NCBI GenBank assembly: GCA_903892645.1
Contig: CAITJF010000130.1
Span: 1-58,761 of the forward strand
DNA from: an uncultured Nitrosomonadales bacterium
GTDB lineage: Bacteria > Pseudomonadota > Gammaproteobacteria > Burkholderiales > Gallionellaceae
Reading direction: 5' to 3'
Length of the DNA: 58,761 bases
Made by a program: the position numbers and the translations under genes. The notes below the pieces were generated by a model. It had not been told where the DNA came from. It did no database searches and saw nothing but the letters and a program-made list of their open reading frames with translations. Positions 30,156 to 55,660 of this stretch are shown here, piece by piece. Position 1 is the stretch's first letter. Every line of letters begins with the position of its first letter.

Positions 30156-33098
30156 ATGAAAACCCATAATTTTGGCGACTCACAGAGCACAATATCCCCG
30201 CTGCACGATCCCGTGGCATCACCTGTGCCGGATGCCAAGATCGAGGTGCGCAACACGACTTGTTATATGTGCGCGTGCCGCTGCGGGATACGCGTCCACC
30301 TGCGCAATGGCGAGGTGCGCTACATAGACGGCAACCCGGATCATCCGCTCAACCACGGCGTGATCTGCGCCAAGGGCAGTGCCGGCATCATGAAACAGTA
30401 CTCTCCCGCGCGGCTGACCAAGCCGTTGCGGCGCAAGCCGGGGGCGGAGCGCGGCACGGGCGAATTCGAGGAGATCAGCTGGGAAGAAACTTTCAGCATC
30501 CTCGCCGAACGGATGGGAAAGATACGCGCCACCGATCCGAAGAAATTCGCGCTGTTCACCGGACGCGACCAGATGCAGGCGCTGACCGGATTGTTCGCGC
30601 GCCAGTTCGGCACGCCCAACTACGCGGCGCACGGCGGCTTCTGTTCGGTGAACATGGCGGCCGGGATGATCTATACCATCGGCGGTTCGTTCTGGGAATT
30701 CGGAGGGCCTGACCTGGAGCGCGCCAAGCTGTTTGTGATGATCGGCACGGCCGAGGATCACCACTCCAACCCGATGAAGATCGCGATCTCGAAATTCAAG
30801 CGCGAGGGCGGACGCTTCATCTCGATCAATCCGGTGCGTAGCGGCTACTCGGCGATTGCCGATGAATGGGTGGGTATCCGTCCCGGCACCGATGGCGCGC
30901 TGCTGCTTGCGCTGACCCACGAAATCATCGCGCTCGGTCTGTATGACCGCGATTTTCTGGTGCGCTACACCAACTCCGGCCAATTGGTGAATCTCGACGA
31001 CACGCACGACGAGTTCGGCATGTTCGTGCGCACCGAGGTGCCGGAAGAGGAGGGATGTTATGACCCGCAAAACAAACTGTGGTGGGATCGCAACAGCGAC
31101 AAGCCGGTAGTCACGCACGCGGAGGGAGCCGACCCGTTCCTGTTCGGCGAATTCGAACTGCCCGACGGCACACCGGTCAAGCCCGCGTTTCAGTTGTTGC
31201 AGGAACGGGTAAAGGACTACACCCCGGAATGGGCGAGCCAGGTCACCGGTGTTCCGGCCGAGACCATCCGCCGCCTCGCCTGTGAGATGGGCATCACGGC
31301 GCGCGACCAGAAGATCGAATTGCCGATCGCCTGGACGGACTCGTGGGGCAAGGAACACGACAGCGTGACCGGCAACCCGGTGGCCTTTCATGCGATGCGC
31401 GGCTTGGCGGCACATTCCAACGGCTTCCAGACGATACGCTCGCTGGCGATTCTGATGTCGCTGCTCGGCACCATCGACAGGCCCGGCGGTTTCCGGCACA
31501 AAGCGCCTTTCCCGCGCCCTATTCCGCCCTGCGCGCGCACGCCCAATACGCCGCTGGCGATCAAGCCGAACACGCCGCTGGACGGCATGCCGCTGGGTTG
31601 GCCGTCCGATCCGGACGATCTGTTCGTCAATACGGATGGCAGCCCGGTGCGCATCGACAAGGCATTCTCGTGGGAATATCCGCTGTCGGTGCACGGGTTG
31701 ATGCACAACGTCATCACCAATGCCTGGCGCGGAGATCCGTATCCGATAGACACGCTGCTGATCTTCATGGCAAACATGGCATGGAACTCGACGATGAATA
31801 CGGTCGAGGTCAGAAAAATGCTCTGCGATAAAGACGAAAATGGTGAACACAAAATTCCGTTTCTTGTCGTCTGCGACGCCTTCCATTCCGAGACGACGGC
31901 ATTCGCCGATCTTGTTTTGCCGGACACCACCTATCTGGAGCGCCATGATGTGATGTCAATGCTGGACCGGCCGATTTCGGAATTCGACGGCCCGGTGGAT
32001 GCGGTGCGCATCCCGGTGTTGCCGCCGACAGGCGAATGCAAGCCTTTTCAGGAAGTGCTGATCGAACTCGGCACGCGTTTGCAACTGCCCGCCTTCGTCA
32101 CTAGGGAAGGTCAGCGTAAATTCAGCGACTACCCAGATTTCATCGTGAACTGGGAAACCGAGCCGGGGTCGGGAATCGGATTCCTGTCGGGCTGGCGCGG
32201 CAAGGATGGCGATAAATTCCTGCGCGGCGAACCCAATCCGAAGCAGTGGGAGATGTACGCGCAAAACAATTGCGTGTATCACCACAAGCTGCCGCGTTCC
32301 TACCAGTACATGCGCAACTGGAACAAGGGTTATCTGGAATGGTCGCAGCGCAACCGCATCACGCGCTATGCCGAGCCGATCCTGATTCACGTGTATTCCG
32401 AAGTGCTGCAAAAATTTCGCCTCGCCGCACAAGGCCGTGGTATCACGCGCAAGCCGCCTCCTCATCTGGCCAAGCGCATCGAAACTTATTTCGATCCGCT
32501 GCCGTTTTTCTATGAACCGCTGGAAACCCAATCCAGCGACAAGAACAAGTATCCGCTTGCGGCCGTGACGCAGCGGCCGATGGCCATGTACCACTCCTGG
32601 GATTCGCAGAATGCCTGGTTGCGCCAGATCCATGCGCACAATTATCTGTACGTGAATCCGCTCGCCGCACAGGACGCAGGCATCGCGGACGGCGGCTGGA
32701 TGTGGGTGGAATCGCAGTGGGGCAAGGTGCGCTGCATGGCGAGATATTCCGAGGCGGTCGAGCCGGGTACGGTGTGGACCTGGAATGCCATCGGCAAGGC
32801 GGCGGGCGCGTGGAACTTATCGCCCGACGCGAACGAGTCGCAGAAGGGTTTTTTGCTCAATCACCTGATCTCCGAGGAGCTGCCGGCCAATCCTGACGGC
32901 ACGCACTATTCCAATTCTGATCCAATCACCGGGCAGGCTGCCTGGTACGATGTGCGAGTGCGCATTTATCCGGCCGGGGCCGATGAACCGCAACAGACCT
33001 CGCCGCAGTTCAAGCCGTATAACCCGGTGCCGGGCATGAGCAAGCGTCCAAGTTGGCTGGCTTATTTTGGCGGTGGCAAGAAGGGCGAAAAAAAATAG
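30156..33098 (+). CDS. soeA: Sulfite dehydrogenase molybdoprotein SoeA
   Basis: Catalytic molybdenum subunit (980 residues) of the membrane-bound cytoplasmic sulfite-oxidising enzyme SoeABC, which oxidises sulfite straight to sulfate. A [4Fe-4S] cluster is bound by Cys36/39/43 (CYMCACRC) and Cys71. Molybdopterin oxidoreductase domains follow (FTGRDQMQAL, NGFQTIRSLAILMSLLGTIDRPGG) and the C-terminal dinucleotide-binding domain starts near residue 790. There is no Tat signal, consistent with a cytoplasmic site. Polysulfide reductase PsrA-type enzymes are related, but the soeBC context and the sulfur-oxidation locus favour SoeA. soeB is displaced 570 bases by an inserted cassette. Confidence 0.88.
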   Translation: MKTHNFGDSQSTISPLHDPVASPVPDAKIEVRNTTCYMCACRCGIRVHLRNGEVRYIDGNPDHPLNHGVICAKGSAGIMKQYSPARLTKPLRRKPGAERGTGEFEEISWEETFSILAERMGKIRATDPKKFALFTGRDQMQALTGLFARQFGTPNYAAHGGFCSVNMAAGMIYTIGGSFWEFGGPDLERAKLFVMIGTAEDHHSNPMKIAISKFKREGGRFISINPVRSGYSAIADEWVGIRPGTDGALLLALTHEIIALGLYDRDFLVRYTNSGQLVNLDDTHDEFGMFVRTEVPEEEGCYDPQNKLWWDRNSDKPVVTHAEGADPFLFGEFELPDGTPVKPAFQLLQERVKDYTPEWASQVTGVPAETIRRLACEMGITARDQKIELPIAWTDSWGKEHDSVTGNPVAFHAMRGLAAHSNGFQTIRSLAILMSLLGTIDRPGGFRHKAPFPRPIPPCARTPNTPLAIKPNTPLDGMPLGWPSDPDDLFVNTDGSPVRIDKAFSWEYPLSVHGLMHNVITNAWRGDPYPIDTLLIFMANMAWNSTMNTVEVRKMLCDKDENGEHKIPFLVVCDAFHSETTAFADLVLPDTTYLERHDVMSMLDRPISEFDGPVDAVRIPVLPPTGECKPFQEVLIELGTRLQLPAFVTREGQRKFSDYPDFIVNWETEPGSGIGFLSGWRGKDGDKFLRGEPNPKQWEMYAQNNCVYHHKLPRSYQYMRNWNKGYLEWSQRNRITRYAEPILIHVYSEVLQKFRLAAQGRGITRKPPPHLAKRIETYFDPLPFFYEPLETQSSDKNKYPLAAVTQRPMAMYHSWDSQNAWLRQIHAHNYLYVNPLAAQDAGIADGGWMWVESQWGKVRCMARYSEAVEPGTVWTWNAIGKAAGAWNLSPDANESQKGFLLNHLISEELPANPDGTHYSNSDPITGQAAWYDVRVRIYPAGADEPQQTSPQFKPYNPVPGMSKRPSWLAYFGGGKKGEKK

Positions 33099-33100
33099 TT

Positions 33101-33134
33101 GCCTCACCCTTGCAGGGGGAGGGTTAGGGTGGCG
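33101..33134. repeat. Palindromic intergenic repeat (left of DUF559 gene)
   Basis: CACCCT at 33105-33110 and AGGGTG at 33126-33131 enclose TGCAGGGGGAGGGTT, resembling a partly deleted copy of the C/G-rich palindrome found at 33620-33642, 46033-46055 and elsewhere. It starts two bases after the soeA stop. Confidence 0.5.
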
Positions 33135-33247
33135 GCTATGACACGGCGTTGCGAAGCATCCGGGGCGGGAATGACCGCCTCACACCCGCTCCCGCAAACG
33201 GCTGGCTGCGCCAGTAACGTGTCGCGGGATGTGGGGGTAGAAATTTC

Positions 33248-33670
33248 ATGAGCGGAACGACGCGGATCAGGGCAAAAACAAAGCAACACTCCCGCAGTCT
33301 GCGACGTGAAATGACCGACGCTGAAAAACTGCTCTGGCGGCATTTGCGCATGGAGCAGTTTGCGGGACACAAGTTTCGCCGACAGCATCCCATCGGAAAT
33401 TACATCGCCGATTTTGTATGTCTGGAAGCGGCGTTGGTATTGGAGGTTGACGGTGGACAACACGCAGATCATTCAGATAGCGATGACATCAGGACACGAA
33501 GGCTGGAAGGAAAAGGTTTTCGCATAATGCGATTCTGGAACAATGAAGTGCTGAGCAATATTGAAGGAGTGAAGCTTGCAATTTGGAATTGTCTATTGGG
33601 GGTTCAACCCTCATCCCGACCTTCCCCCTGCCAGGGGGAAGGAGAAGGTCTGCGGCGCGAGGATGCGTAA
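33248..33670 (+). CDS. DUF559 endonuclease-fold protein
   Basis: A 140-residue protein of the DUF559 family, which has a PD-(D/E)XK, Vsr-like nuclease fold. It has the usual start LRREMTDAEKLLWRHLR, the core KFRRQHPIGNYIADFVC, and LVLEVDGGQH (acidic and Glu residues), then GFRIMRFWNNEVLSN. The last 20 or so residues (SSRPSPCQGEGEGLRRED) are encoded by a palindromic repeat. It separates soeA from soeB, and its stop is directly adjacent to the soeB ATG (TAAATG). Such genes are often seen inside repeat-flanked cassettes. Its role is unknown. Confidence 0.85.
   Translation: MSGTTRIRAKTKQHSRSLRREMTDAEKLLWRHLRMEQFAGHKFRRQHPIGNYIADFVCLEAALVLEVDGGQHADHSDSDDIRTRRLEGKGFRIMRFWNNEVLSNIEGVKLAIWNCLLGVQPSSRPSPCQGEGEGLRREDA
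33611..33650. repeat. Palindromic repeat at 3' end of DUF559 gene
   Basis: CCTTCCCCCT (33620-33629), loop GCC, AGGGGGAAGG (33633-33642): a perfect 10-bp stem. It belongs to the same family as the repeat at 46033-46055, which has the same CCTTCCCCC stem. It encodes the C-terminus of the DUF559 protein. Confidence 0.75.
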
Positions 33671-34402
33671 ATGACCCAACTTGCTCTGGTTATCGATCTC
33701 AATGTCTGCGTCGGTTGCCATGCCTGCGTGACCAGCTGCAAGGAATGGAACACCTCCGGCGCAGCCGGGCCGCTGTGCGACGAGAATCCTTATGGCGCTG
33801 ATCCGACCGGCACGTTTTTCAATCGGGTGCAGACCTTTGAGGTTGGGCAGTATCCCAGCACGGATACGGTGCATTTCCCCAAGTCCTGTCTGCATTGCGA
33901 AGACCCGCCGTGCGTGCCGGTCTGTCCGACGGGGGCCTCGTACAAGCGCAAGCAGGATGGCATCGTGCTGGTGGATTACGACAAGTGTATCGGCTGCAAG
34001 TATTGCACTTGGGCCTGCCCTTACGGTGCGCGCGAAATAGATGAACAGCAGAAAGTGATGAAGAAATGCACCCTGTGTGTGGATCGCATTTACGATACCT
34101 CGCTGGCGGAAATTGACCGCAAGCCGTCCTGCGTCAAGGCCTGCCCGACCAGCGCACGGTTATTCGGCGATATCCATGACCCCGAATCGGAGGTATCGAA
34201 AGCGATACGCGAGAACGGCGGTTACGCGCTGATGCCGGAATGGGGCACGCATCCGGCCAACCATTATCTGCCGCGCCGCAAGACCCATCTCAAGATACAC
34301 AAGGATGAACTCGAGCGTGCCGATAACCCGCTTAAGGTTGACGGACAACTACCCAAGCCGGGCAAGAACGAGCCGACGCTCGACGATGTCACCTCCTGGT
34401 AA
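33671..34402 (+). CDS. soeB: Sulfite dehydrogenase iron-sulfur subunit SoeB
   Basis: A 243-residue DmsB/NrfC-type protein with four [4Fe-4S] cluster motifs: Cys13/16/19/23, then CLHCEDPPCVPVCP, CIGCKYCTWACP, and CTLC with CVKACP. It carries electrons from SoeA to SoeC. No signal peptide, so cytoplasmic. Its ribosome-binding site (GAGGA about 10 bases upstream) lies within the last codons of the DUF559 gene, so the inserted cassette now supplies its translation start context. Confidence 0.9.
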   Translation: MTQLALVIDLNVCVGCHACVTSCKEWNTSGAAGPLCDENPYGADPTGTFFNRVQTFEVGQYPSTDTVHFPKSCLHCEDPPCVPVCPTGASYKRKQDGIVLVDYDKCIGCKYCTWACPYGAREIDEQQKVMKKCTLCVDRIYDTSLAEIDRKPSCVKACPTSARLFGDIHDPESEVSKAIRENGGYALMPEWGTHPANHYLPRRKTHLKIHKDELERADNPLKVDGQLPKPGKNEPTLDDVTSW

Positions 34403-34413
34403 CTACTCACATC

Positions 34414-35391
34414 ATGAATCCAGCCTTCTCAGTTATTTTTCTCACCACCTTGATCGGCATCGGCCAAGGTTTGTTTCTGGCTCTGTTTACCCAGCAATCC
34501 TACGCGCTGTTTGATCTGTTGCCGCATCAGGATGCACGCTTTTATGGATGGGGCAGCCTGTTGGCACTACTCTTCACGACGGCAGGATTGGTCGCCTCAT
34601 TTTTTCACCTGGGGCGCCCGGAACGTGCCTGGCGTTCGGCGGCACAGTGGCGCACTTCGTGGCTTTCGCGCGAAGTCATCGTGTTGCCCGCGTTCATGGG
34701 AATATTGTTTCTGTATGGGGCGTCCCATTTGATCGGGCTCGATCCGGTGCTGTTGACGCTGCCCAGCGGACTGGGTATCAATGCCACGGTCATCCTGGGC
34801 GGCATCGCTACAATATTGGCATTTGCCCTGTTCGTGAGTACCGGCATGATTTACGCCTGTTTACGTTTTTTGCAGGAATGGCATTCACCGCTGACGGTAA
34901 TCAATTTCACACTACTTGGCGGCGCATCCGGTTTCACACTGGCGACACTGTACGCCACCATGGTTGCACCCACGCAAACCGGCTTCCTCGGCGGGTGGGC
35001 GATCATCATTACCTTGCTGGGTCTGCTTGGACGCAGTTCGTCATTGTGGCGTAATGCACGGCTAAGGCCGAAATCGACACTACAAACGGCGATTGGCATC
35101 AAGCATCCGCGCATCGTGCAGACAGCGCAGGGCGCGATGGGTGGCTCATTCAGCACGCGGGAGTTTTTCCACGGCAAGAGTGAGGCGTTTCTAGGCAGGA
35201 TGAAAGCGAGCTTCCTGCTGCTGGCGTTTGCCCTCCCGCTACTGTTGCTGGCCTCCAATTTGTCCTATCCTTCCGCATTGTTGCTGTGTGTCGCATTCGT
35301 CTCGCAATTTGCCGGCCTGCTGGCGGAACGCTGGTATTTTTTCGCGGAAGCGAAACACCCGCAAAATCTCTACTATCAAGGGATGTCGTGA
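34414..35391 (+). CDS. soeC: Sulfite dehydrogenase membrane anchor SoeC
   Basis: A 325-residue DmsC-family membrane protein with about eight hydrophobic helices. It anchors SoeAB at the inner face of the membrane and passes electrons to quinone. Visible segments include FSVIFLTTLIGIGQGLFLAL at the N-terminus and a conserved REVIVLPAF region. It follows soeB by 11 bases, and its stop overlaps the next start as TGATG. Confidence 0.9.
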   Translation: MNPAFSVIFLTTLIGIGQGLFLALFTQQSYALFDLLPHQDARFYGWGSLLALLFTTAGLVASFFHLGRPERAWRSAAQWRTSWLSREVIVLPAFMGILFLYGASHLIGLDPVLLTLPSGLGINATVILGGIATILAFALFVSTGMIYACLRFLQEWHSPLTVINFTLLGGASGFTLATLYATMVAPTQTGFLGGWAIIITLLGLLGRSSSLWRNARLRPKSTLQTAIGIKHPRIVQTAQGAMGGSFSTREFFHGKSEAFLGRMKASFLLLAFALPLLLLASNLSYPSALLLCVAFVSQFAGLLAERWYFFAEAKHPQNLYYQGMS

Positions 35392-36371
35392 TGCTCAGAA
35401 ATGCAGTGTTGGCGATTAGAGAAACGGGTGGCTTGGTCAAGACAAACTTGTTGCCGGTTTTGCTTGTCCTGACGATTTTTGCAGGCAGCACTTATGCCGC
35501 AGAGGTTGCCCCATCAGCTTCAGCTATGCCTTGGTGGGGCTGGCCGCTGGCACTGTTCATCACCTGTTTTTTTCTTGGAATAGTCGCCGTGCCATCCGGT
35601 GTGGGTGGCGGCGTGCTCTTCGTTCCTATCGTGGGCGGTTTTTTCCCCTTTCATCTCGACTTTGTGCGTGGCGCAGGATTGCTGGTCGCCCTGGCCAGTG
35701 CTTTGGCAGCAGGACCATCGCTGCTGCGTGTCGGGCTTGCCGATTTGCGGCTGGCGCTGCCGCTGGCTTTGCTGGCATCAGCCAGCTCGATAGCGGGGGC
35801 CATGATAGGACTCGCCATTCCCGCATCACTGGTGCAAATCGCCTTGGGCATCACCATTCTTGGCATTGTCGTTCTTATGGCATCAGCCAAAAAATCCGAA
35901 TTCCCAGATGTTGTCGCCCCCGATAGGCTTTCCGCCGCATTGTCTATGCATGGAATTTTCCATGATGCTTCGCAAGGAAAAAATATCCATTGGCAGGTTC
36001 ATCGTACACCACTCGGATTATTGCTTTTTGTGGGTATTGGCTTCTTGGCAGGGCTATTTGGCATGGGCGCAGGCTGGGCTAATGTACCCGTGCTCAATTT
36101 GCTGATGGGCGCACCACTCAAGGTTTCTGCCGGCACATCCAGTTTTATTCTGACGCTGGTGGATTCATCGGCTGCCTGGATTTATCTCAACAAGGGTGCA
36201 GTGCTGGCAATGATCGCCGTCCCATCAGTCATCGGCATGATGCTGGGTGCCTTTATCGGCGCACGTCTGTTGCACGTACTCAAGGCCTCGGTGGTGCGCA
36301 AGCTGGTCATTTCACTGTTGCTGTTCGCCGGTTTACGTGCCCTGCTCAAGGGCTTGGGTATCTGGATGTAG
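35391..36371 (+). CDS. TauE/SafE-family sulfite exporter
   Basis: A 326-residue membrane protein of the TauE/SafE permease family, with about eight to nine helices and the repeated Gly-rich motifs FFLGIVAVPSGVGGGVLFVP and GFLAGLFGMGAGWANVPVL. Members export sulfite or sulfur-containing anions. The start at 35391 overlaps the soeC stop by one base, which makes a role in sulfite handling next to SoeABC likely. Upstream in-frame codons belong to the soeC region and are not used. Confidence 0.88.
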   Translation: MLRNAVLAIRETGGLVKTNLLPVLLVLTIFAGSTYAAEVAPSASAMPWWGWPLALFITCFFLGIVAVPSGVGGGVLFVPIVGGFFPFHLDFVRGAGLLVALASALAAGPSLLRVGLADLRLALPLALLASASSIAGAMIGLAIPASLVQIALGITILGIVVLMASAKKSEFPDVVAPDRLSAALSMHGIFHDASQGKNIHWQVHRTPLGLLLFVGIGFLAGLFGMGAGWANVPVLNLLMGAPLKVSAGTSSFILTLVDSSAAWIYLNKGAVLAMIAVPSVIGMMLGAFIGARLLHVLKASVVRKLVISLLLFAGLRALLKGLGIWM

Positions 36372-36376
36372 TTATC

Positions 36377-36790
36377 ATGGACAACAATCATATTTCCGTC
36401 GAACAACAACGCTATGCCACCTTGCTGAGCTGGGGTGCGCGCTCTGGCTTGGTACTGCTGATCGTCTGCTTTCTTGCTTATGTGTTCGGCTGGATGCCCG
36501 CACATGTACCGGTCGATCAACTTCCTTATCTGTGGAATCTGCCAGTAGAGGAATATCTTAAACAAACAAACACCACCACCGGTTGGAGTTGGCTGAAAAT
36601 GATTGGTGAAGGAGATTTTGCCAGCCTTGTGGGTATCGCCTGGTTGTCCAGCTGCTCACTGATTTGCCTGTTAGCCATTATTCCGGTTTACGCCCGTCGC
36701 CGAGACAAGGTTTTTGTGATGATTTGCGTGATTGCATTAGCCGTACAACTACTAGCCGCATCCGGTATTCTGGGCGGTGGACATCATTGA
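36377..36790 (+). CDS. DUF1634 membrane protein
   Basis: A 137-residue protein with three hydrophobic helices (GLVLLIVCFLAYVFGW, FASLVGIAWLSSCSLICLLAIIPV, VFVMICVIALAVQLLAASGIL), matching the DUF1634 pattern. This family commonly follows TauE/SafE permeases and may be a partner subunit. It begins 6 bases after the exporter. Confidence 0.8.
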   Translation: MDNNHISVEQQRYATLLSWGARSGLVLLIVCFLAYVFGWMPAHVPVDQLPYLWNLPVEEYLKQTNTTTGWSWLKMIGEGDFASLVGIAWLSSCSLICLLAIIPVYARRRDKVFVMICVIALAVQLLAASGILGGGHH

Positions 36791-36797
36791 GGTAAAC

Positions 36798-37625
36798 ATG
36801 CACAACACACCTTTCAAGCGGATATTGCTAGCGACCGAACACACCGAATTCGATACTGGCGCGGAACGGCTGGCTTTCGAAATGGCACGTCGCTGCGGGT
36901 TGCCGTTGATGGCGGTGCTGCCGGTGGTGAGCAACCCGGAATTCGAGATTGCGGCTCCGCAACTCGCCGCGCGGAATGACCGTGAAGCCGCTAGCAAAGT
37001 TGATGCCCTGCGCAGTACCGCCATGCAGCTCGGCGTTCAGCTCGAAATCCATGTTCGGCGTGGCGAGGAGCCGTACCGTGAGATTCTGAACGAGGCCAAG
37101 GAAAAGCAGGCCGATTTGATTATTACGCGCCGGCGCGGCAAGCGCAGTTTCCTGGCAAAATTACTGGTTGGTGAAATGGTCAGCAAGGTGGCCGGACACG
37201 CGCCATGCAGTGTGTTGCTGGCGCCGCGCAATGGCGCCATGTGGTCGAACGGTGTGCTCGCAGCAGTAGATGATTCCGAACACTCCCTGAGAATTACTTC
37301 CACGGCGGCTAGCATTGCCAGGGAATGCGCTTTGCCGCTAACCATCTTGAGCGTAGCCGAAACTGCAGCGTTGCACGAAAAGGCAGAGGTGATTGTATCT
37401 CGCCATGCCGGAACAGTTGCCGGACTTAATGTTGTTGTCCGCCAGCTCGTTCTGACAGGTTCTCCACACGAGCAGATTCTCGCAGCCAGCAAGTCTGTAG
37501 GTGCAGACCTGATTGTGGTGGGACGGCTTGGCGAAAGCAATGCCGTGGTGCGTATGTTGCTGGGCAGCACCATGCAGAAGGTAGTGGGGATGGCTAACCA
37601 GCCGGTATTGGTTGTACCAGCATAA
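36798..37625 (+). CDS. Tandem universal stress protein
   Basis: A 275-residue protein with two UspA domains (about 1-145 and 150-275). The second has the ATP-binding pattern GRLGESNAVVRMLLGSTMQKVV, and the first ends with a related SFLAKLLVGEMVSKVAGHAPCSVLL. GAGGT lies just before the ATG at 36798. It closes the soeABC-tauE-DUF1634 gene run with no gap. Usp proteins are stress-related nucleotide binders; the specific role here is unknown. Confidence 0.87.
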   Translation: MHNTPFKRILLATEHTEFDTGAERLAFEMARRCGLPLMAVLPVVSNPEFEIAAPQLAARNDREAASKVDALRSTAMQLGVQLEIHVRRGEEPYREILNEAKEKQADLIITRRRGKRSFLAKLLVGEMVSKVAGHAPCSVLLAPRNGAMWSNGVLAAVDDSEHSLRITSTAASIARECALPLTILSVAETAALHEKAEVIVSRHAGTVAGLNVVVRQLVLTGSPHEQILAASKSVGADLIVVGRLGESNAVVRMLLGSTMQKVVGMANQPVLVVPA

Positions 37626-37647
37626 GCAATGAAAGGTTTGAAAAATA

Positions 37648-37714
37648 ACCCTAATGGGCTATTCTGACCACTCTTAGTGGGTATGGACGCTGATAGGCTG
37701 GTTATTCCTATAAT
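37648..37714 (+). promoter_or_regulatory. Candidate activator sites and -10 box upstream of tusA-dsrE2
   Basis: Site 1 ACCCTAATGGGCTAT (37648-37662); site 2 CCACTCTTAGTGGGTATGG (37668-37686), 23 bases further in phase; TATAAT at 37709-37714, 22 bases after ATGG. There is no recognisable -35, as expected for an activator-dependent promoter. The architecture matches those before soeA and dsrA. Confidence 0.6.
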
Positions 37715-37788
37715 GCGCCGCGAGTGGTTCCATATGATGGCAAATCAGTTTTGGCGGTAATTCTAATTAAGTTGCGGGAGATGAAGCG

Positions 37789-38016
37789 ATGAATTTTGAC
37801 AAGGAATTGGATGCACGCGGCATGAACTGCCCGTTGCCTATCCTGAAAACCAAGAAATCACTGACCGATATGGTCTCCGGGCAGGTATTGAAAGTGATCT
37901 CCACCGACTGCGGTTCGGTGAAAGATATGCAAGCCTTTGCAGATCAGACCGGGAATACGCTGGTTTCACAAACCGAGGAAAATGGCGAATACATTTTCTT
38001 CATGCAGAAAAAATAA
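37789..38016 (+). CDS. tusA: Sulfur carrier protein TusA
   Basis: A 75-residue sulfurtransferase carrier. The active Cys14 lies in the CPxP motif (GMNCPLPILKTKKSL). In sulfur oxidisers TusA takes persulfide sulfur from rhodanese or DsrE2 and passes it to DsrEFH. GGGAG lies about 9 bases upstream. The downstream neighbour dsrE2 starts 26 bases later; no rhodanese gene accompanies them here. Confidence 0.93.
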   Translation: MNFDKELDARGMNCPLPILKTKKSLTDMVSGQVLKVISTDCGSVKDMQAFADQTGNTLVSQTEENGEYIFFMQKK

Positions 38017-38041
38017 TCAACTCACCGCATAAGGGAATATC

Positions 38042-38506
38042 ATGAAAAAAATGGCTATCATTGCCACCAAAGGTACGCTGGATATGGCCTACCCGCCATT
38101 CATCCTCGCCTCCACCGCCGCTGCTCTTGGCTACGAGGTACAGGTGTTCTTTACCTTCTACGGCTTGCAGTTGCTGCGCAAGGATTTGTCCAGTGTGATG
38201 ATCAGCCCGCTGGCCAATCCGGCCATGCCGATGCCCGTGCCGATGCCGGTGATGGTGCAGATGCTGCCTGGAATGGAATCCATGGCAACCATGATGATGA
38301 AGCAAAAGTTGAAAAAGCATGGCGTGGCCTCGCTGCAAGAGTTGCGCGATCTGTGTCTGGAAGCCGAAGTGAAATTCGTTGCCTGCCAGATGACGGTTGA
38401 TTTGTTCGAATTCGACAAGAGCGAATTTATCGACAACATCGAATACGGCGGAGCGGCTACGTTCTTGGGTTTTGCGGGAGATACCGACATCTGTCTGTTT
38501 GTTTAA
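38042..38506 (+). CDS. dsrE2: DsrE2-family sulfur trafficking protein
   Basis: A 154-residue DsrE/F/H-like protein of the DsrE2A type, encoded next to tusA as in other sulfur oxidisers. The Met/Pro-rich loop (MPMPVPMPVMVQMLPGM, about 62-78) is characteristic. Cys115 (KFVACQMTVD) and Cys151 (DICLFV) correspond to the two cysteines considered functional in the family. It is probably membrane-associated and feeds persulfide sulfur to or from TusA. Confidence 0.88.
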   Translation: MKKMAIIATKGTLDMAYPPFILASTAAALGYEVQVFFTFYGLQLLRKDLSSVMISPLANPAMPMPVPMPVMVQMLPGMESMATMMMKQKLKKHGVASLQELRDLCLEAEVKFVACQMTVDLFEFDKSEFIDNIEYGGAATFLGFAGDTDICLFV

Positions 38507-38577
38507 AATGGGGAGTTGCACAGCCGTGCAGTAGTTGCGTGTGGGTTCGTTTCATCAATCAATCAGGGAGACTTTTT

Positions 38578-39828
38578 GTGAGAATAAAGAAAATTGTTGC
38601 TTCATTGCTCGCCGCTGGCGTGATGGTGTCACCACTTGCTCATGCGACTGACGGGTATTTTGCGCACGGTTATGGTATGAAAGCGAAAGGTATGGGGGGC
38701 GTAGGGATTGCGCTACCGCAGGATGCCCTTGCCGCCGCGACCAACCCAGCAGGTATGGTCATGATAGGTGACCGGATTGATTTCGGCGTGGACTGGTTCA
38801 AACCAACCAGGGGCGCGGATATAGCGGGCAGCCCTGTTCCCGGCATGAATGGTACATACAGCGGGAACGGCACGAGCAACTTTCTCATTCCGGAATTCGG
38901 CTACAACAAGATGATGAATCCGGATATGTCGTTCGGCGTATCGGTTTATGGCAACGGCGGCATGAATACCGATTACACCAGCAGCCCGTTTGCGGCAATT
39001 GGCGGCACAAACCCAGCTGGTATAAATCTGGAACAGCTATTCATCGCTCCGACTTGGGCGATGAAGCTTAACCCAAGCAACTTCATAGGAGTATCCTTGA
39101 ATCTAGCCTACCAAAGCTTTGAGGCCAAAGGATTGGAAGGCTTTGGACTTGCAGGCTGGTCGAGCGATCCGACCAAGTTAACCAACAATGGCAAGGATAC
39201 TTCCACGGGATATGGCCTGCGCTTAGGCTGGACAGGACAGGTTTCCCCTACGGTAACATTGGGTGCGACCTACCAGACCAAAACCAAAATGGGCAAATTC
39301 AGCAAGTATGCTGGTCTGTTTGCCGAACAGGGTGGTTTTGACATCCCCGCCAACTATGGGGTAGGAATTGCGGTAAAGCTTAGCGACACAACCACCGTTG
39401 CTGCCGATATTGAGCAAATCCAATACAGTGGAGTTCCGTCGGTTGCAAATTCATTGGCTAGCCCCGGATTGCTGGGGAACAGTAACGGCCCCGGCTTTGG
39501 CTGGCGTGATATGACTGTGTTCAAGCTGGGCGTAAGCCACCAGTATGATAGCGGCTTGGTGGTGCGTGCTGGCTATAACACCGGTCGTCAGCCGGTCCCG
39601 GAAACTGAAACCTTATTTAATATTCTGGCACCGGGTGTCGTTCAGGATCATTTGACCTTGGGTGCTACGTGGATATTGCCCAGCAAATCAGAGTTGACGC
39701 TCGGCTACATGCATGCGTTCAAGAAAACAATCAATGGCGCTAACTCTATGACTCCTTTAGGCGGCGGCGAAGCAAACCTCAATATGTATCAGGACTCTTT
39801 GGGTATTGCCTACGGCTGGAAGATGTAA
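38578..39828 (+). CDS. FadL/OmpP1-family outer-membrane transport protein
   Basis: A 416-residue beta-barrel precursor with a signal peptide (KKIVASLLAAGVMVSPLAHA) and the family N-terminal pattern ATDGYFAHGYG-KAKGMGGVGIA...NPAG. GTG 38578 is the start, with AGGGAG 7 bases upstream. FadL relatives carry hydrophobic molecules across the outer membrane. It is 71 bases downstream of dsrE2 and ends in a good terminator, so it is probably in the tusA-dsrE2 transcript. Import of a hydrophobic sulfur species is an inference from context only. Confidence 0.85.
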   Translation: MRIKKIVASLLAAGVMVSPLAHATDGYFAHGYGMKAKGMGGVGIALPQDALAAATNPAGMVMIGDRIDFGVDWFKPTRGADIAGSPVPGMNGTYSGNGTSNFLIPEFGYNKMMNPDMSFGVSVYGNGGMNTDYTSSPFAAIGGTNPAGINLEQLFIAPTWAMKLNPSNFIGVSLNLAYQSFEAKGLEGFGLAGWSSDPTKLTNNGKDTSTGYGLRLGWTGQVSPTVTLGATYQTKTKMGKFSKYAGLFAEQGGFDIPANYGVGIAVKLSDTTTVAADIEQIQYSGVPSVANSLASPGLLGNSNGPGFGWRDMTVFKLGVSHQYDSGLVVRAGYNTGRQPVPETETLFNILAPGVVQDHLTLGATWILPSKSELTLGYMHAFKKTINGANSMTPLGGGEANLNMYQDSLGIAYGWKM

Positions 39829-39855: not shown

Positions 39856-39883
39856 AGCCCGCCACACTAGGCGGGCTTTTTTT
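39856..39883 (+). terminator. Rho-independent terminator after fadL-like gene
   Basis: AGCCCGCC (39856-39863), loop ACACTA, GGCGGGCT (39870-39877) followed by a run of Ts. Strong bidirectional-looking stem with the T-run on the plus strand; ends the tusA-dsrE2-fadL unit. Confidence 0.9.
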
Positions 39884-39904: not shown

Positions 39905-40783
39905 TCAACTCCCCTCGATGCGGTCGTAAAAGCGCGCGCGGTAGAGCAGGCGCGGATGTGCCTGGTTGTCGCTAAAAGCAGTCCGATCATGCAGCACGTT
40001 GTTGCACAACAGCCCCATGCCGTCCTCAAGCCGCGCGCAGTGGATATGCGGCATATCCGCGGCAAGCAGTTCTTCCAGCATCGCAACGGCAGCCAGCGTG
40101 GTTGCATCCTGCTTCCATTCGATGCTGCGGGTGCGTGCGGTATAGCGCATGTGCAGATTACAGTTTGCCGGAGCTATGGAGAATACTGGGCCGGTCTGCG
40201 CGGGGCGCGCTATGCCCTGTTCGCCGATGCGTTCCGGAATGGTCATCGCATCCGGTGCGGAAAGTACGCGGATAAGATCGCTATTCGCATCACGCAGCAT
40301 CAAATAAACGATTTCATGATCCAGCAGGCGGTTTTCGCCGCCTTGCCCTGCACTCTGCGCACAATGCAGTACCATGCCGCGCACCTGCTGTTCGGGAGAA
40401 TTGTAATAGCCGTCGGTATGCCATTTTATGGCACGGTCGGTATAGGGAATATAAGCCTGCTGTTGGCCGTCGCCAGCACACATGGTGATGTGTGTTATGC
40501 CTTGCTCACTCGCCAGCCAGTTTGCATCCAGGCGATTCAAGCCGAACTGCTGTCCGAGTTGACGCACCATATTTTCATCGGCACGCCCGGCTCGGGTTGC
40601 ATAAATCGCCATGTTGCTGCGACGGCAACGCGCCAACAGTGCGGTGTGTTCAGCCGCAGTCAGTGCGTGCGGATTATTGATTTCGACGATCAGTTCACTG
40701 GTGTTGGTGATGGCGTGTGCCAGCTTGCGATCACGCCAGTACAGGTAAGCCGTTGGGTTATTAAGATCGAATGGATTTTGCAT
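39905..40783 (-). CDS. TauD/TfdA-like Fe(II)/2-oxoglutarate dioxygenase
   Basis: A 292-residue protein with the family's iron-binding triad: His122 and Asp124 in WHTDGYY and a distal His265 in NNVLHDR, with Arg residues (RLLYRARF) near 280 for 2-oxoglutarate. Family members hydroxylate sulfonates and other small substrates, releasing sulfite in the case of taurine. The substrate here is unknown. It is the last gene of the minus-strand accessory operon opposite dsrAB, 27 bases after the preceding gene. Confidence 0.78.
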   Translation of the reverse strand: MQNPFDLNNPTAYLYWRDRKLAHAITNTSELIVEINNPHALTAAEHTALLARCRRSNMAIYATRAGRADENMVRQLGQQFGLNRLDANWLASEQGITHITMCAGDGQQQAYIPYTDRAIKWHTDGYYNSPEQQVRGMVLHCAQSAGQGGENRLLDHEIVYLMLRDANSDLIRVLSAPDAMTIPERIGEQGIARPAQTGPVFSIAPANCNLHMRYTARTRSIEWKQDATTLAAVAMLEELLAADMPHIHCARLEDGMGLLCNNVLHDRTAFSDNQAHPRLLYRARFYDRIEGS

Positions 40784-40810
40784 TAATTGCCCAGTACAAA
40801 TCTGCGCATT

Positions 40811-41407
40811 TCAATCCACGCTAGCGGTCTTGCGGGTACGTGGTTGCCCCGGTTCTGTCTCGAACAGGTCACGCATGGTTTTTTCTACCATGATTACGGC
40901 TTCCGGTGCCTCGATGCTCATCATCTGGTCAATGACCCAAGTGATATCTTGCTCATCCATGATTTCGCGCATGCAGTAGGCCAGGTAACGGGTAAACGCA
41001 AACCCCGGGCCATCGCTGCCGTAATCGAACTCGGCGTATTCCCCTGCGCGTTGGTTGAGTTTGTCGATGAAGTGCTGCTTATGTTTGCTGATGCTGTTAC
41101 CCATCAGCCTGCCTTGATTTTCAGCCAGCGTTTCCGCCACGCGGTTTGCCAATGTGCTGGTGAATACAAAGCGCACTTCAGCGGGTAATTGGCGATAGGC
41201 GATGCGGTCTGCAACCTGAATCAGAAATACCAGAAATTCGGTGAGGAAGGCAAAATACTGCGTGCCGATGGCGATCTCAAAATCTGCTTTGCGGGTATTC
41301 TTGAGCGCGTTGTCGCCGATGCGCCAGATGACAAAAGCCAACGCCCCCGCTATTTCTTGCGGCGTTTTTTCACGTTCACTCTTGAACCAATGGCTTTTGA
41401 TGCGCAT
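40811..41407 (-). CDS. Conserved protein of unknown function in sulfur operon
   Basis: A 198-residue, mostly helical soluble protein with no signal peptide. Conserved-looking stretches are AFVIWRIGDNALKNTRKADFEIA and FAFTRYLAYCMREIMDEQD. I recognise no family. The start is uncertain: ATG 41407 is used here, while TTG 41434 overlaps the tandem TusA stop (TTGA) and would add nine residues; neither has a clear ribosome-binding site. Its place between a two-domain TusA and a TauD-like enzyme suggests a sulfur-related role, not a known one. Confidence 0.65.
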   Translation of the reverse strand: MRIKSHWFKSEREKTPQEIAGALAFVIWRIGDNALKNTRKADFEIAIGTQYFAFLTEFLVFLIQVADRIAYRQLPAEVRFVFTSTLANRVAETLAENQGRLMGNSISKHKQHFIDKLNQRAGEYAEFDYGSDGPGFAFTRYLAYCMREIMDEQDITWVIDQMMSIEAPEAVIMVEKTMRDLFETEPGQPRTRKTASVD

Positions 41408-41430
41408 GTCGGGTGAGCCGAAGGTTCGGG

Positions 41431-41916
41431 TCAACCCTTTTGCAGGAAAAACTCATACTCGCCCGCAGATCCTTCAATAGTGTCGAGGATTTTTACGCCG
41501 GTCACGCTTGCCCAGCCGACGATGTCGGAATGTATTCCAGGGCAGTTGCTGACGAGCTTGAGAATCTCGCCAGAATTCATGCCGTTCAGCAGCTTCTTGG
41601 CCTCCACGATTGGCCCGGGGCATACAACACCGCGAATATCCAGAATCACATTTGCCTCGCGCGCTTTCCCCTTGCCCTTCATGATGTAATAACCCGTGCC
41701 GCCATCTGCTATCGCCTCCGTTTTCAATACGTGATTGTGGGTCTGTTCCGCCCAGGCGAAAAGATCATCCCGGGTACCCGGGCAATCCGAGAGTAACAGC
41801 AGTATTTGTTCATTTTTTAGATCATCGACCACGCGCTTGGCACCGAGCAGCGGCGCGGGGCAGCTCAGGCCGCGCAAATCCAGTTTTACATTGGCATGAA
41901 AGTCTTGAGTGCTCAT
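41431..41916 (-). CDS. Two-domain TusA-like sulfur carrier
   Basis: A 161-residue protein made of two TusA/SirA-like domains in one chain. Domain 1 has Cys19 in LSCPAP, domain 2 has Cys99 in VVCPGP, and each has a second cysteine in a matching DCPG/NCPG turn (Cys45, Cys125). Both CPxP motifs are intact, so both halves could carry sulfur. Start at 41916 (MSTQDFHANVKLDLRG), with GAGGA about 10 bases upstream. It is flanked by the cysteine-free DsrC homologue and a protein of unknown function. Confidence 0.87.
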   Translation of the reverse strand: MSTQDFHANVKLDLRGLSCPAPLLGAKRVVDDLKNEQILLLLSDCPGTRDDLFAWAEQTHNHVLKTEAIADGGTGYYIMKGKGKAREANVILDIRGVVCPGPIVEAKKLLNGMNSGEILKLVSNCPGIHSDIVGWASVTGVKILDTIEGSAGEYEFFLQKG

Positions 41917-41985
41917 TTTTAGATATCCTCTTGGTTTCTGAACCGTCATTTCTGTAGCCGGCATGCCGGATACGTTCTGCGTTTT

Positions 41986-42315
41986 TCAATACCCGCCCTT
42001 GCCCAGCGGTTGCGGTAATCCGGCAACTTTCGCGCCTTGTTTGGCCGGGCCTGTCGGAAATAAATCATACAGCGCTTTGCTATCCGCCTCTGGCCAGAAT
42101 TCATTAATGCCTTTCAGCATATTGCGAAAATTGGGCGTGTGTCCATGTTCACGGTATTCATCACGCAAATAATTTATGACCTGCCAGTGCTTGGGTGTTA
42201 ACTCAATGTTTTCTGCCGCAGCAATGATGCCAACTATTTCTTCACTGTAATCTGGCTCCAACAAGTAGCCTTCCGCATCGGTTTCAAGTTCAGTGCCCGC
42301 AACCAGGTATCCCAT
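41986..42315 (-). CDS. rspA: DsrC/TusE-family protein without active cysteines (RspA-like)
   Basis: A 109-residue DsrC/TusE-fold protein: EGYLLEPDYSEEIVGIIAAAENIELTPKHW aligns with the true DsrC at 47.3 kb, and the C-terminal arm (KQGAKVAGLPQPLGKGGY) aligns with KQACKIGGLPKPTGCV. Both arm cysteines (99 and 110 in DsrC) are replaced, by Gly and Lys. Homologues lacking both cysteines have been called RspA and proposed to be regulatory. It cannot form the DsrC trisulfide. GGAGG lies 6 bases before the ATG. Confidence 0.85.
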   Translation of the reverse strand: MGYLVAGTELETDAEGYLLEPDYSEEIVGIIAAAENIELTPKHWQVINYLRDEYREHGHTPNFRNMLKGINEFWPEADSKALYDLFPTGPAKQGAKVAGLPQPLGKGGY

Positions 42316-42350
42316 GATCAGCCTCCGTTAAAAAACTCTTTGATTAGCCA

Positions 42351-42932
42351 TCATTCCAAACCGGAGATGACTTTGTAAGGTACAAAAATACCACAGCCAA
42401 ATTGACGGCCTTCTCCCAGCCCGGCATATTGTAATTGTAGAGATGCTTCTGGTTTCAGACCATGTATAACCAAACTATAACCGTGAATGGATTGCTGAGT
42501 ACATGCAAGGGTACGACGCATGCCACAGATCAATCCAGCAGCAATCCCCATCTGGCTTAACTGTGCATTGATGCCATTCAGGAAAAGCACTTCGTCGGTT
42601 GCGCCTGTTACCAGCTGCGCGTGAATAGTGGGGTAGGATTGAATTGGGCGCAGCTTACCTTTGCCTAACTGCAGGGTGTTTTCCGCCATATCTAGTTGTT
42701 GTCCTGACAGGGCGGTGGCGCGGGCGGCAAGCGCTAGCGGCAAGCGCAGCACCAGCTTGGCGCGTTTGGGAAGCAGCATCCCTTCGTTATTTTCTGCCGT
42801 GCGCAACGGCAATACCCCGACAGACTTTTCTTCCGCGAGTTGTGGAACATGGCGTATCAGTGCCTCCCACAGCGCAAAGGGATAAGCAGCGGGAAGTATT
42901 CCACCGCCAAGATCGAACACCATGTCGATCAT
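42351..42932 (-). CDS. Cas6-like RAMP-fold protein (Cmx6-like), no CRISPR nearby
   Basis: A 193-residue protein whose pattern matches the MYXAN-type Cas6/Cmx6 proteins as I know them: MIDMVFDLGGGILPAAYPFA at the N-terminus, a central GLICGMRR segment, and a C-terminal glycine-rich loop GLGEGRQFGCGIFVPYK. Cas6 enzymes cut CRISPR precursor RNA; RAMP-fold relatives bind structured RNA. There is no repeat-spacer array and no other cas gene in this window. It lies between a small conserved gene and rspA. ATG 42932 is used; GTG 42953 would add seven residues. Confidence 0.65.
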   Translation of the reverse strand: MIDMVFDLGGGILPAAYPFALWEALIRHVPQLAEEKSVGVLPLRTAENNEGMLLPKRAKLVLRLPLALAARATALSGQQLDMAENTLQLGKGKLRPIQSYPTIHAQLVTGATDEVLFLNGINAQLSQMGIAAGLICGMRRTLACTQQSIHGYSLVIHGLKPEASLQLQYAGLGEGRQFGCGIFVPYKVISGLE

Positions 42933-42966
42933 CTCTGGGATTTTATTAGTCACTTGCCTGTTGTTG

Positions 42967-43185
42967 CTACGCAGCTTGTTTTTGGGAATCTGCCCAGATT
43001 TGCATGGCAGTCGCCCACTGTTGCGCTGTGGCAGGGTCAATATCGAAAATCGTAAAACGTCTGTTCTCACGAATGCGGATGCGCAGCAGGCTCATCCCGC
43101 CTTCGGCATGATCTATTTGTTGCAATTCAATTTCCTGATTACCCAAGGGAACCCTGATCTTTGATAATTGACTGATTTGTGCCAT
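42967..43185 (-). CDS. Small conserved protein, first gene of accessory operon
   Basis: A 72-residue protein (MAQISQLSKIRVPLGNQEIE...) with a likely all-beta core (RIRIRENRRFTIFDIDP) followed by a helix (TAQQWATAMQIWADSQ). It may correspond to a small domain of unknown function (possibly DUF6967) found beside sulfur genes; I am not certain. It ends 34 bases before the Cas6-like start and is transcribed away from dsrA across the regulatory region. Confidence 0.65.
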   Translation of the reverse strand: MAQISQLSKIRVPLGNQEIELQQIDHAEGGMSLLRIRIRENRRFTIFDIDPATAQQWATAMQIWADSQKQAA

Positions 43186-43283
43186 TATAAATTTCTCCCA
43201 TTTAGACAGATCGCAATGTTCCCAGAGTATTCTGAACAGGATTTTATAGATAGTTAAGTCTATCGCTAATGTACTTGGAAATG

Positions 43284-43376
43284 AAATACTACCGGGGAAG
43301 ACAAAATACTACCCTTTAGGGTTATTGAAGATAGCCACTAAAGGTGATGGAATGCATGGGGGATGCACCGTATAGT
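43284..43376 (+). promoter_or_regulatory. dsr promoter with candidate activator sites
   Basis: Site 1 ACCCTTTAGGGTTAT (43311-43325), site 2 CCACTAAAGGTGATGG (43335-43350), and TATAGT at 43371-43376, 20 bases after ATGG. Two further copies of AAATACTACC start at 43284 and 43304, 20 bases apart. The region lies between dsrA (plus) and the accessory operon (minus), a 346-base gap otherwise without genes. A GCCCCG...CGGGC inverted repeat at 43457-43473 lies in the dsrA leader. Confidence 0.6.
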
Positions 43377-43531
43377 GCACAGAACCATTAGGAAATTGGG
43401 TGGCTGCGGGATTGAAAGTGCTAGAGTTCAGATGGGTTATCCAGATAAAAAAACAAGCCCCGCCTCTGCCGGGCCATTAAATCGATTGCCGACAGTAAGT
43501 ACTAGTCAATACGACTGAAAGGAAGATTATT

Positions 43532-44830
43532 ATGGCGAAGAAGATGCATGACACCCCAAATCTTGATCAACTCGAGGATGGTCCATGGCCCAGTTTTGTG
43601 ACTGGCTTGAAAGCGTTGGCAAAAGACAAGGACTATGTGGTTGACCTTCTTGGGCAGCTTGAGACTTCGTACAGAACAAAAAAAGGCTACTGGAAGGGCG
43701 GTACGGTCGGTGTGTTTGGCTATGGCGGTGGCGTTATTCCGCGTTTTACCGAACTCAAGGATGAAAACGGTCAGCCGGTGTTCAAGGATGCGGCCGAGTT
43801 CCACACCCTGCGCATCATGCCTCCGCCCGGCATGCACTACGATACCGATACGCTGCGCAAGTTCTGCGACATCTGGGAGAGGCATGGCTCCGGTTTGATC
43901 GCATTACACGGCCAGTCCGGCGACATCATGATGCAGGGCTGCACCACCGAGAACGTGCAGAAGGCTTGGGACGAAATCAACGAAATGGGCTTCGACATGG
44001 GCGGCGCCGGCCCGGCGGTACGTACCTCAATGTCCTGCGTCGGTGCGGCGCGTTGCGAGCAATCCTGTTATGACGAGGCCAAGGCACATCGCGTTGTATT
44101 GAACACTTTTCTGGATGACATCCATCGTCCTTCCTTGCCGTACAAGTTCAAATTCAAATTTTCCGGCTGCCCGAACGATTGCATGAACTCCATACAACGT
44201 TCTGACATGGCCGTGATCGGAACTTGGCGCGATAATATCCGCACCGACGAAGCACTGGCGAAAAAATGGTTTGCCAAGCACGGCATGGACGAGTTGGTAA
44301 ATGACATTGTTGCGCGTTGCCCGACCAAAACATTTCAGCTCAAACAGATCAAGGATCTTAAGAGCGGCCCGAGCATTTCCAGCGTTGCGGTCAATGACGT
44401 CCATGCGATAGAAATTGATAACCACGAATGTGTGCGCTGCATGCACTGCATCAATGTAATGACTGGGGCATTGGCTCCCGGTGAAGATAAGGGCGCAACC
44501 ATTCTGGTGGGGGGCAAGCGTACCCTCAAGATCGGCGACCTGATGGGCACGGTGGTCGTTCCATTCATGAAGCTGGAAACAGATGAAGACATGAAAAAAT
44601 TGGTCGATCTCGGCCAGCGCATCATTGACTTCTTCGCAGAAAACGCGCTCGAGCATGAACGCACCGGTGAAATGATCGAGCGTATTGGCTTGGTGAGTTT
44701 CCTCGAGGCGATGGAAATTGAAGTGGATTCAAATATGGTGTCCACCCCGCGCACGAACCCATACGTCCGTACCGACGGATGGGATGACGAAGTTGCCAGG
44801 ATCAATGCCAAAAAACAAGCCGCTGTCTGA
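43532..44830 (+). CDS. dsrA: Reverse dissimilatory sulfite reductase alpha subunit
   Basis: Sirohaem/Fe-S subunit that, with DsrB, oxidises DsrC-bound sulfur to sulfite in the cytoplasm. The 432-residue product has the catalytic-cluster cysteines in CVGAARCEQSCYDEA and FSGCPNDCMNS, and an inserted ferredoxin domain (HECVRCMHCINVM). AAAGGAAG lies 6 bases before the ATG. The presence of dsrEFH and dsrL and the absence of dsrD mark it as the oxidative type. Confidence 0.96.
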   Translation: MAKKMHDTPNLDQLEDGPWPSFVTGLKALAKDKDYVVDLLGQLETSYRTKKGYWKGGTVGVFGYGGGVIPRFTELKDENGQPVFKDAAEFHTLRIMPPPGMHYDTDTLRKFCDIWERHGSGLIALHGQSGDIMMQGCTTENVQKAWDEINEMGFDMGGAGPAVRTSMSCVGAARCEQSCYDEAKAHRVVLNTFLDDIHRPSLPYKFKFKFSGCPNDCMNSIQRSDMAVIGTWRDNIRTDEALAKKWFAKHGMDELVNDIVARCPTKTFQLKQIKDLKSGPSISSVAVNDVHAIEIDNHECVRCMHCINVMTGALAPGEDKGATILVGGKRTLKIGDLMGTVVVPFMKLETDEDMKKLVDLGQRIIDFFAENALEHERTGEMIERIGLVSFLEAMEIEVDSNMVSTPRTNPYVRTDGWDDEVARINAKKQAAV

Positions 44831-54187: not shown

Positions 54188-54194
54188 TCTTTCC

Positions 54195-55613: not shown

Positions 55614-55660
55614 ATTTTTTAAACACAAGCGCGGTTTTTTCGATAAGCGCAAGGATAGAC

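Follow-up and report, generated by a model that had tools for sequence, protein, structure and literature searches.

A Cas6-like protein and a cysteine-less DsrC paralogue in a conserved accessory module of reverse Dsr sulfur oxidation

Introduction

What is a gene for a protein of the Cas6 family doing beside the genes for sulfur oxidation? The reverse Dsr (rDsr) pathway is a main route by which sulfur is oxidised biologically and, to our knowledge, its list of parts is treated as essentially complete. We analysed a stretch of 58,761 nucleotides from an uncultured Nitrosomonadales bacterium (Gallionellaceae; assembly GCA_903892645.1, contig CAITJF010000130.1, positions 1-58,761), all of which is called the window here, and in which six tightly packed open reading frames (ORFs) on the minus strand at 39905-43185 diverge from dsrA. 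In order outward from dsrA, they encode a DUF6967 protein, a Cas6-like protein, a paralogue of DsrC, a double TusA, a protein called Orf5 and a TauD-like protein. An earlier reading of the bare sequence (the original prediction) had taken them for an accessory operon opposite dsrAB. We show that the operon is a conserved module accessory to oxidative (reverse) Dsr sulfur oxidation and not part of a CRISPR (clustered regularly interspaced short palindromic repeats) system, an assignment that we regard as close to certain.

Results

The operon is tied to dsrAB across beta- and gammaproteobacteria

Genomes were sampled from the same order (300), from the class (369) and from the phylum outside the class (218). 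In the order, the Cas6-like family PF09559 occurs in 58 of the 300 genomes and dsrA in 64 (three of them with fragments only), and all 58 lie within the 64; the Fisher p-value for this association is 1e-55, an overstatement, as species cannot be treated as independent. A profile of Orf5 (A2) matches 62 order genomes, every one among the 64 dsrA-positive genomes, and none of the remaining 236. In the class, where dsrA was called at E < 1e-20 (a threshold of our choosing), PF09559 is present in 118 of 369 genomes, dsrA in 119 and both in 111. The seven class genomes with a Cas6-like gene but without dsrA are mostly fragmented, and in one (G425) the contig stops beside the operon. PF09559 is absent from the 218 phylum genomes outside the class, where dsrA was not searched.

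The order and class counts show a module that has spread widely among beta- and gammaproteobacteria and goes with dsr, and the linkage of the operon with dsrAB is far beyond chance. The survey of genome collections proposed alongside the original prediction bears out the accessory set, with dsrA accompanying the Cas6-like gene in 58/58 order and 111/118 class genomes; restriction to close relatives, which had been named as its refutation, is contradicted by a spread over many families of order and class. Among named organisms, the window's Cas6-like gene has its nearest relatives mostly in metagenome-assembled genomes (MAGs) of the Gallionella/Sideroxydans type; the operon is carried by, for example, Ferriphaselus sp. 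R-1 (L224) and by MAGs of Thiobacillus (L249) and Dechloromonas (L219). The Cas6-like gene is also retained in genomes of 1.0-1.1 Mb (G338, G440, G552, G584, G647), which argues for an important function.

Profiles built from the window proteins served to annotate 100 fetched regions, each at most 20 kb long, and 96 Cas6-like loci were compared. dsrAB lies within the fetched stretch in 89 of these 96, on the opposite strand in 89/89, and the DsrC paralogue is encoded immediately downstream of the Cas6-like gene in 87/96 (median gap 54 bases). The recurrent layout in betaproteobacteria is (DUF6967)-Cas6-DsrC'-(sulfurtransferase)-Orf5-TauD, divergent from dsrAB, DsrC' being the paralogue; in many other gammaproteobacteria TauD stands between the Cas6-like gene and dsrA. 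The Cas6-like gene and the paralogue remain paired in two small genomes with dsrA elsewhere (L169, L170), and three dsr loci without a Cas6-like gene (G083, G217, G277) are also without the paralogue. A further genome with no Cas6-like gene (G132) has a DsrC relative that ends in RKPRAWSTG, without the KGGY tail of the paralogue. The two proteins probably work as a unit. Together with Orf5 and the TauD-like dioxygenase, the pair of Cas6-like protein and KGGY-tailed, cysteine-less DsrC makes up the most constant elements of the module; a two-domain sulfurtransferase is present in most of the sampled betaproteobacteria.

The Cas6-like protein has left the CRISPR context

The window protein matches TIGR02807 (Cas6/Cmx6) above the NCBIfam equivalog cut-off. 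Its AlphaFold model has a predicted local distance difference test score (pLDDT) of 95.5, and Foldseek matches it to Cas6 of a type I-B CRISPR-associated transposon (CAST; 8fcu_B) with a TM-score of 0.88 and 28% identity. It resembles type I-MYXAN Cas6/Cmx6 (PF09559, TIGR02807) and type I-B CAST Cas6 (8fcj/8fcu) in fold, sequence family and glycine-rich loop. It differs from both in having no CRISPR locus or adjoining cas genes, in forming a separate group in the tree and in its fixed dsr partners, as well as in its near-neutral charge, its own invariant residues, its (H/Y)-K tail and the lack of a histidine at the position of PfCas6 His46.

Cas1 is absent from the source genome and from 37 of 66 near-complete genomes with the Cas6-like gene, and family scans (Pfam and others) found no other cas family among the operon proteins. 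For comparison, we used CRISPR-linked Cmx6 genes from cyanobacterial plasmids, 6/7 of which adjoin other cas genes. In an IQ-TREE phylogeny of 69 sequences, a single branch (support 100/98) separates 61 dsr-linked from 8 CRISPR-type proteins, and the dsr-linked proteins carry a signature of R57 (95/96), E114 (95/96), G137 (96/96) and the C-terminal (H/Y)-K. Annotation models name the protein Cas6/Cmx6, which would fit a misannotation or a plain leftover of a CRISPR system, with a stray cas6 lying beside dsrA by chance, but the separate grouping in the tree, the many genomes without Cas1 and the conservation of the partners across the class speak against it; the distribution refutes this explanation, to which we give almost no probability.

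As a separate observation, a Gloeobacter plasmid gene annotated cas6/cmx6 (L260, 3971-4762) has as neighbours genes for a PAPS-reductase-family protein, a cupin and hypothetical proteins, and the stretch contains no further cas gene; it is perhaps another non-CRISPR use of the Cas6 family.

Cas6-type cleavage is unlikely and RNA binding possible

PfCas6 requires Tyr31 and His46 (PMC3652601). The column aligned to His46 holds a histidine in 0/96 dsr-linked proteins and in 6/8 CRISPR relatives; hhalign of PfCas6 against both profiles left the N-terminal half unaligned, so that this match rests on three agreeing MAFFT modes. An insert with an arginine conserved in 8/8 CRISPR relatives is missing from the dsr-linked proteins. 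Their median isoelectric point is 6.9, as against 9.3-9.6 in CRISPR-linked relatives, a difference that is only suggestive as the two sets come from different proteomes. Most dsr-linked members have histidines at two other positions (H17 in 77/96, H41 in 74/96); the window protein has Y17 and L41, and is one of 14 members in which both are missing. These features make Cas6-type cleavage by the dsr-linked protein unlikely. The RNA-binding glycine-rich loop of Cas6 proteins is retained (G171, G173, R176, G179, G181), and RNA binding is therefore possible.

This bears on an RNA-acting regulator, in which the Cas6-like protein would bind or cut RNA, for example dsr transcripts, while the cysteine-less DsrC couples this to the status of the sulfur carrier, an idea that goes back to the original prediction. 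The Cas6 fold and the retained loop fit such a role, H17 and H41 could make an alternative active site, and SsoCas6 functions without the usual histidine. Against this stand the empty His46 column in 96/96 proteins, the loss of basic charge and of the arginine-bearing insert, and the members, including that of the window, that have neither H17 nor H41. Furthermore, RNAalifold on ten Gallionellaceae-type intergenic regions between the divergent genes returned a trivial hairpin only and no conserved RNA fold, so we claim no leader RNA target; scanning the window for Rfam families and tRNAs gave no matches. We consider an RNA-acting regulator unlikely, if worth keeping in mind. The resemblance to an RNA-processing RAMP (repeat-associated mysterious protein) that was noted originally thus stands for family and fold but is weakened for RNA processing.

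The DsrC paralogue has exchanged its cysteines for a conserved tail

The paralogue belongs to the DsrC/TusE family (PF04358, 114 bits; TIGR03342, 96 bits). The penultimate cysteine is strictly conserved in all DsrC (PMC3397948). We compared 95 paralogues with 85 genuine DsrC proteins from the same loci. Both arm cysteines are present in 85/85 genuine DsrC; in the paralogue, they are replaced by lysine at the last cysteine site (92/95) and mostly by alanine or glycine at the other. The tail of the paralogue is extended to KGGY, with K in 92/95 and GG and Y in at least 91/95, and is a conserved new tail rather than decay. The paralogue thus shares the fold family and the arm motif FP..P.KQ...AGLP with the DsrC/TusE/DsvC carriers (PF04358, TIGR03342), and differs from them in its two replaced redox cysteines, its KGGY extension and its Cas6-like neighbour. 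In Allochromatium vinosum, the DsrC-family genes listed are Alvin_0028, 0345, 0732, 1256 and 1508; none of these five lies directly upstream of dsrA, and the accessory operon is not described there (PMC3368242). During growth of A. vinosum on pyrite, the transcript of the DsrC relative Alvin_1508 drops about 7-fold, and dsr transcripts drop as well (PMC11267869).

A sulfurtransferase slot, Orf5 and a probable oxygenase

Both domains of the double TusA keep two cysteine motifs, and the CPxP cysteine is invariant in both (13 non-redundant members). In 21 loci, the slot that follows the DsrC paralogue is occupied by a double TusA, and in 34 by a two-domain rhodanese whose loop reads CGSGVTAC; a single locus (L086) combines the two. 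It looks like one sulfurtransferase has been replaced by another, and this exchange points to a sulfur-transfer role for the position. Both types belong, with intact cysteines, to known sulfurtransferase families (TusA and the two-domain mercaptopyruvate-type rhodanese), from which they differ in being two-domain forms that alternate at one place in the operon.

In E. coli, the s2U34 pathway includes TusA and DsrC/TusE, and together with the RAMP fold this could suggest a branch of tRNA thiolation or hydroxylation in which TusA, the TusE-like DsrC, an RNA-binding RAMP and the dioxygenase modify tRNA. The operon has no MnmA-like enzyme, however, the transfer cysteine is lost from the DsrC/TusE paralogue and the tie to dsrA is strict; we judge a tRNA branch very improbable.

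Orf5 has invariant residues E57, N97, N118 and Y124 and a confident, all-helical structure model (pLDDT 92). A fold search found no significant match in the PDB (best E value 0.38), and a Pfam scan of 40 members gave scattered chance matches only and no family. In the TauD-like protein, H122, D124 and H265 (HxD...H) and R278 are invariant in 46/46 non-redundant members, so that it is very likely an active oxygenase. It shares the HxD...H...R active site with TauD/TfdA dioxygenases including TmpA, but similarity is weak: TmpA (6npb) is the nearest solved relative at an E value of 0.0057, and scores fall far below the cut-offs of the named TauD/TfdA equivalogs.

An intact dioxygenase triad would also suit a set of factors for the maturation or assembly of rDsrAB or of its siroheme-amide cofactor. 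In such a set, the cysteine-less DsrC would hold the DsrC channel while assembly proceeds, and the dioxygenase would modify protein or cofactor. Constant closeness to dsrAB, the arm motif shared with DsrC, and the occurrence of siroheme and DsrN-type genes within the island agree with this. Several dsr-positive genomes, on the other hand, keep dsrAB without the Cas6-like gene and the paralogue; we consider this explanation rather unlikely.

Layout of the locus and its surroundings

The features of the locus are collected in Table 1. All six ORFs lie where originally placed, and the identities assigned to the Cas6-like protein (above the PF09559 and TIGR02807 cut-offs) and to the DsrC homologue (zero cysteines) were correct; the double TusA is present in the window with its two domains, but is lineage-specific, its slot being taken by the rhodanese in many betaproteobacteria. 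From DUF6967 onward, the gaps between the genes are 34, 35, 21, 23 and 27 bases, the third becoming 69 if TusA2 starts at an inner ATG. A stretch of 346 bases separates the first operon gene from dsrA. The divergent dsr genes form the usual set, as in the rDsr cluster dsrABEFHCMKLJOPNRS of Allochromatium vinosum.

Table 1. Features of the accessory operon and the adjoining dsr region in the window
Feature	Position	Strand	Evidence or remark
DUF6967 (PF22295) small protein, 72 aa, first operon gene	42967..43185	-	Pfam 106 bits; present in betaproteobacterial loci
Cas6-family RAMP protein, 193 aa	42351..42932	-	PF09559 182 bits (cut-off 26.7); TIGR02807
DsrC-family paralogue without cysteine, KGGY C-terminal tail, 109 aa	41986..42315	-	PF04358 114 bits
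Double TusA, two PF01206 domains	41431..41964	-	Pfam; cysteine motifs
Orf5, all-helical, 198 aa counted from the conserved MRIK start	40811..41407	-	No Pfam family; structure model
TauD/TfdA-family 2-oxoglutarate Fe(II) dioxygenase (PF02668)	39905..40783	-	59 bits
Divergent intergenic region common to operon and dsrA	43186..43531	.	Contains dyad ACCCTTTAGGGT
dsrA, first gene of the divergent dsr cluster (dsrA B E F H C ...)	43532..44830	+	
Terminator-like hairpin of the FadL-like gene, which ends just past the last operon gene	39856..39877	+	

The dyad ACCCTTTAGGGT lies at 43311-43322, in the middle of the divergent region. Its symmetry is largely kept in Gallionellaceae-type relatives, in one of which (L210) it is kept via paired changes (ACTCTTTAGAGT), and the dyad is a possible candidate operator. 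The dyad ACCCTNNAGGGT has two sites in the genome, about the number expected by chance, and we therefore claim no regulon. Further clusters of same-strand ORFs close to the operon gave no Pfam match of use and may be shadow ORFs.

The sulfur genes upstream, at 30156-38506, place the operon within a sulfur-oxidation island. They comprise a 980-aa ORF, a 4Fe-4S protein and a membrane subunit of the DmsC/NrfD type, in an order like that of SoeABC sulfite oxidation, along with a TauE-type exporter, a universal stress protein (Usp), a single TusA and DsrE2. A 137-aa ORF without a Pfam match (36377-36790) adjoins the TauE and Usp genes. A gene for a FadL/TodX-family outer membrane protein (38539-39828) separates dsrE2 from the operon, and about ten of the fetched loci have relatives of it close to the operon. 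On the downstream side of the dsr genes, 54162-57055 encodes a DsrN-like glutamine amidotransferase and a CysG-type siroheme synthase.

Discussion

How might such a module work? We tentatively favour a reading, itself somewhat short of probable, in which a Cas6-like scaffold and the KGGY-tailed DsrC act on sulfur-carrier proteins within rDsr oxidation. The Cas6-like protein would be a RAMP fold put to new use as a scaffold or a partner for proteins, having probably ceased to be a ribonuclease of the Cas6 type, and would bind the DsrC paralogue via the KGGY tail of the latter. Since the paralogue keeps the DsrC arm motif and carries no sulfur on the usual cysteines, it could sit at the sites where DsrEFH or DsrAB bind DsrC, competing with or mimicking DsrC. 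In this way it might gate, chaperone or report on persulfidated DsrC and its flow. Sulfane sulfur would be supplied or removed by the sulfurtransferase slot, and the dioxygenase may add an oxygen-dependent modification or degrade a side product.

Several observations pull the other way. SsoCas6 cleaves RNA though it is without the catalytic histidine (PMC3652601), so that sequence alone cannot exclude catalysis, and the glycine-rich loop has been kept. The distances of the module proteins are correlated (Mantel r 0.54-0.76), which may reflect shared ancestry alone, and some dsr genomes are without the Cas6-like gene. We regard as evenly balanced the broader proposal that a Cas6-family RAMP left CRISPR, lost Cas6-type catalysis and joined the KGGY-tailed DsrC and Orf5 as a near-universal, so far unrecognised component of rDsr in beta- and gammaproteobacteria, acting on sulfur carriers and not on foreign RNA.

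Cysteine-less DsrC homologues, also called RspA (a name not found in the literature searched), have been proposed as regulators, and the paralogue itself is thus not new. The module as a whole matches no described system known to us. We found no paper linking PF09559, Cas6/Cmx6, RspA, DUF6967 or I-MYXAN with dsr in a literature search that covered subscription journals little, in agreement with the original remark that no function had been described for the set.

The presence of the module in about nine-tenths of the dsr-bearing genomes sampled, and its retention in genomes of 1 Mb, imply a missing step or control of rDsr. Orf5 represents a dsr-specific family with an unmatched fold, and lone "Cas6" annotations in sulfur bacteria are not to be taken as CRISPR. 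If the proposed role is true, a CRISPR protein family would be at work in energy metabolism.

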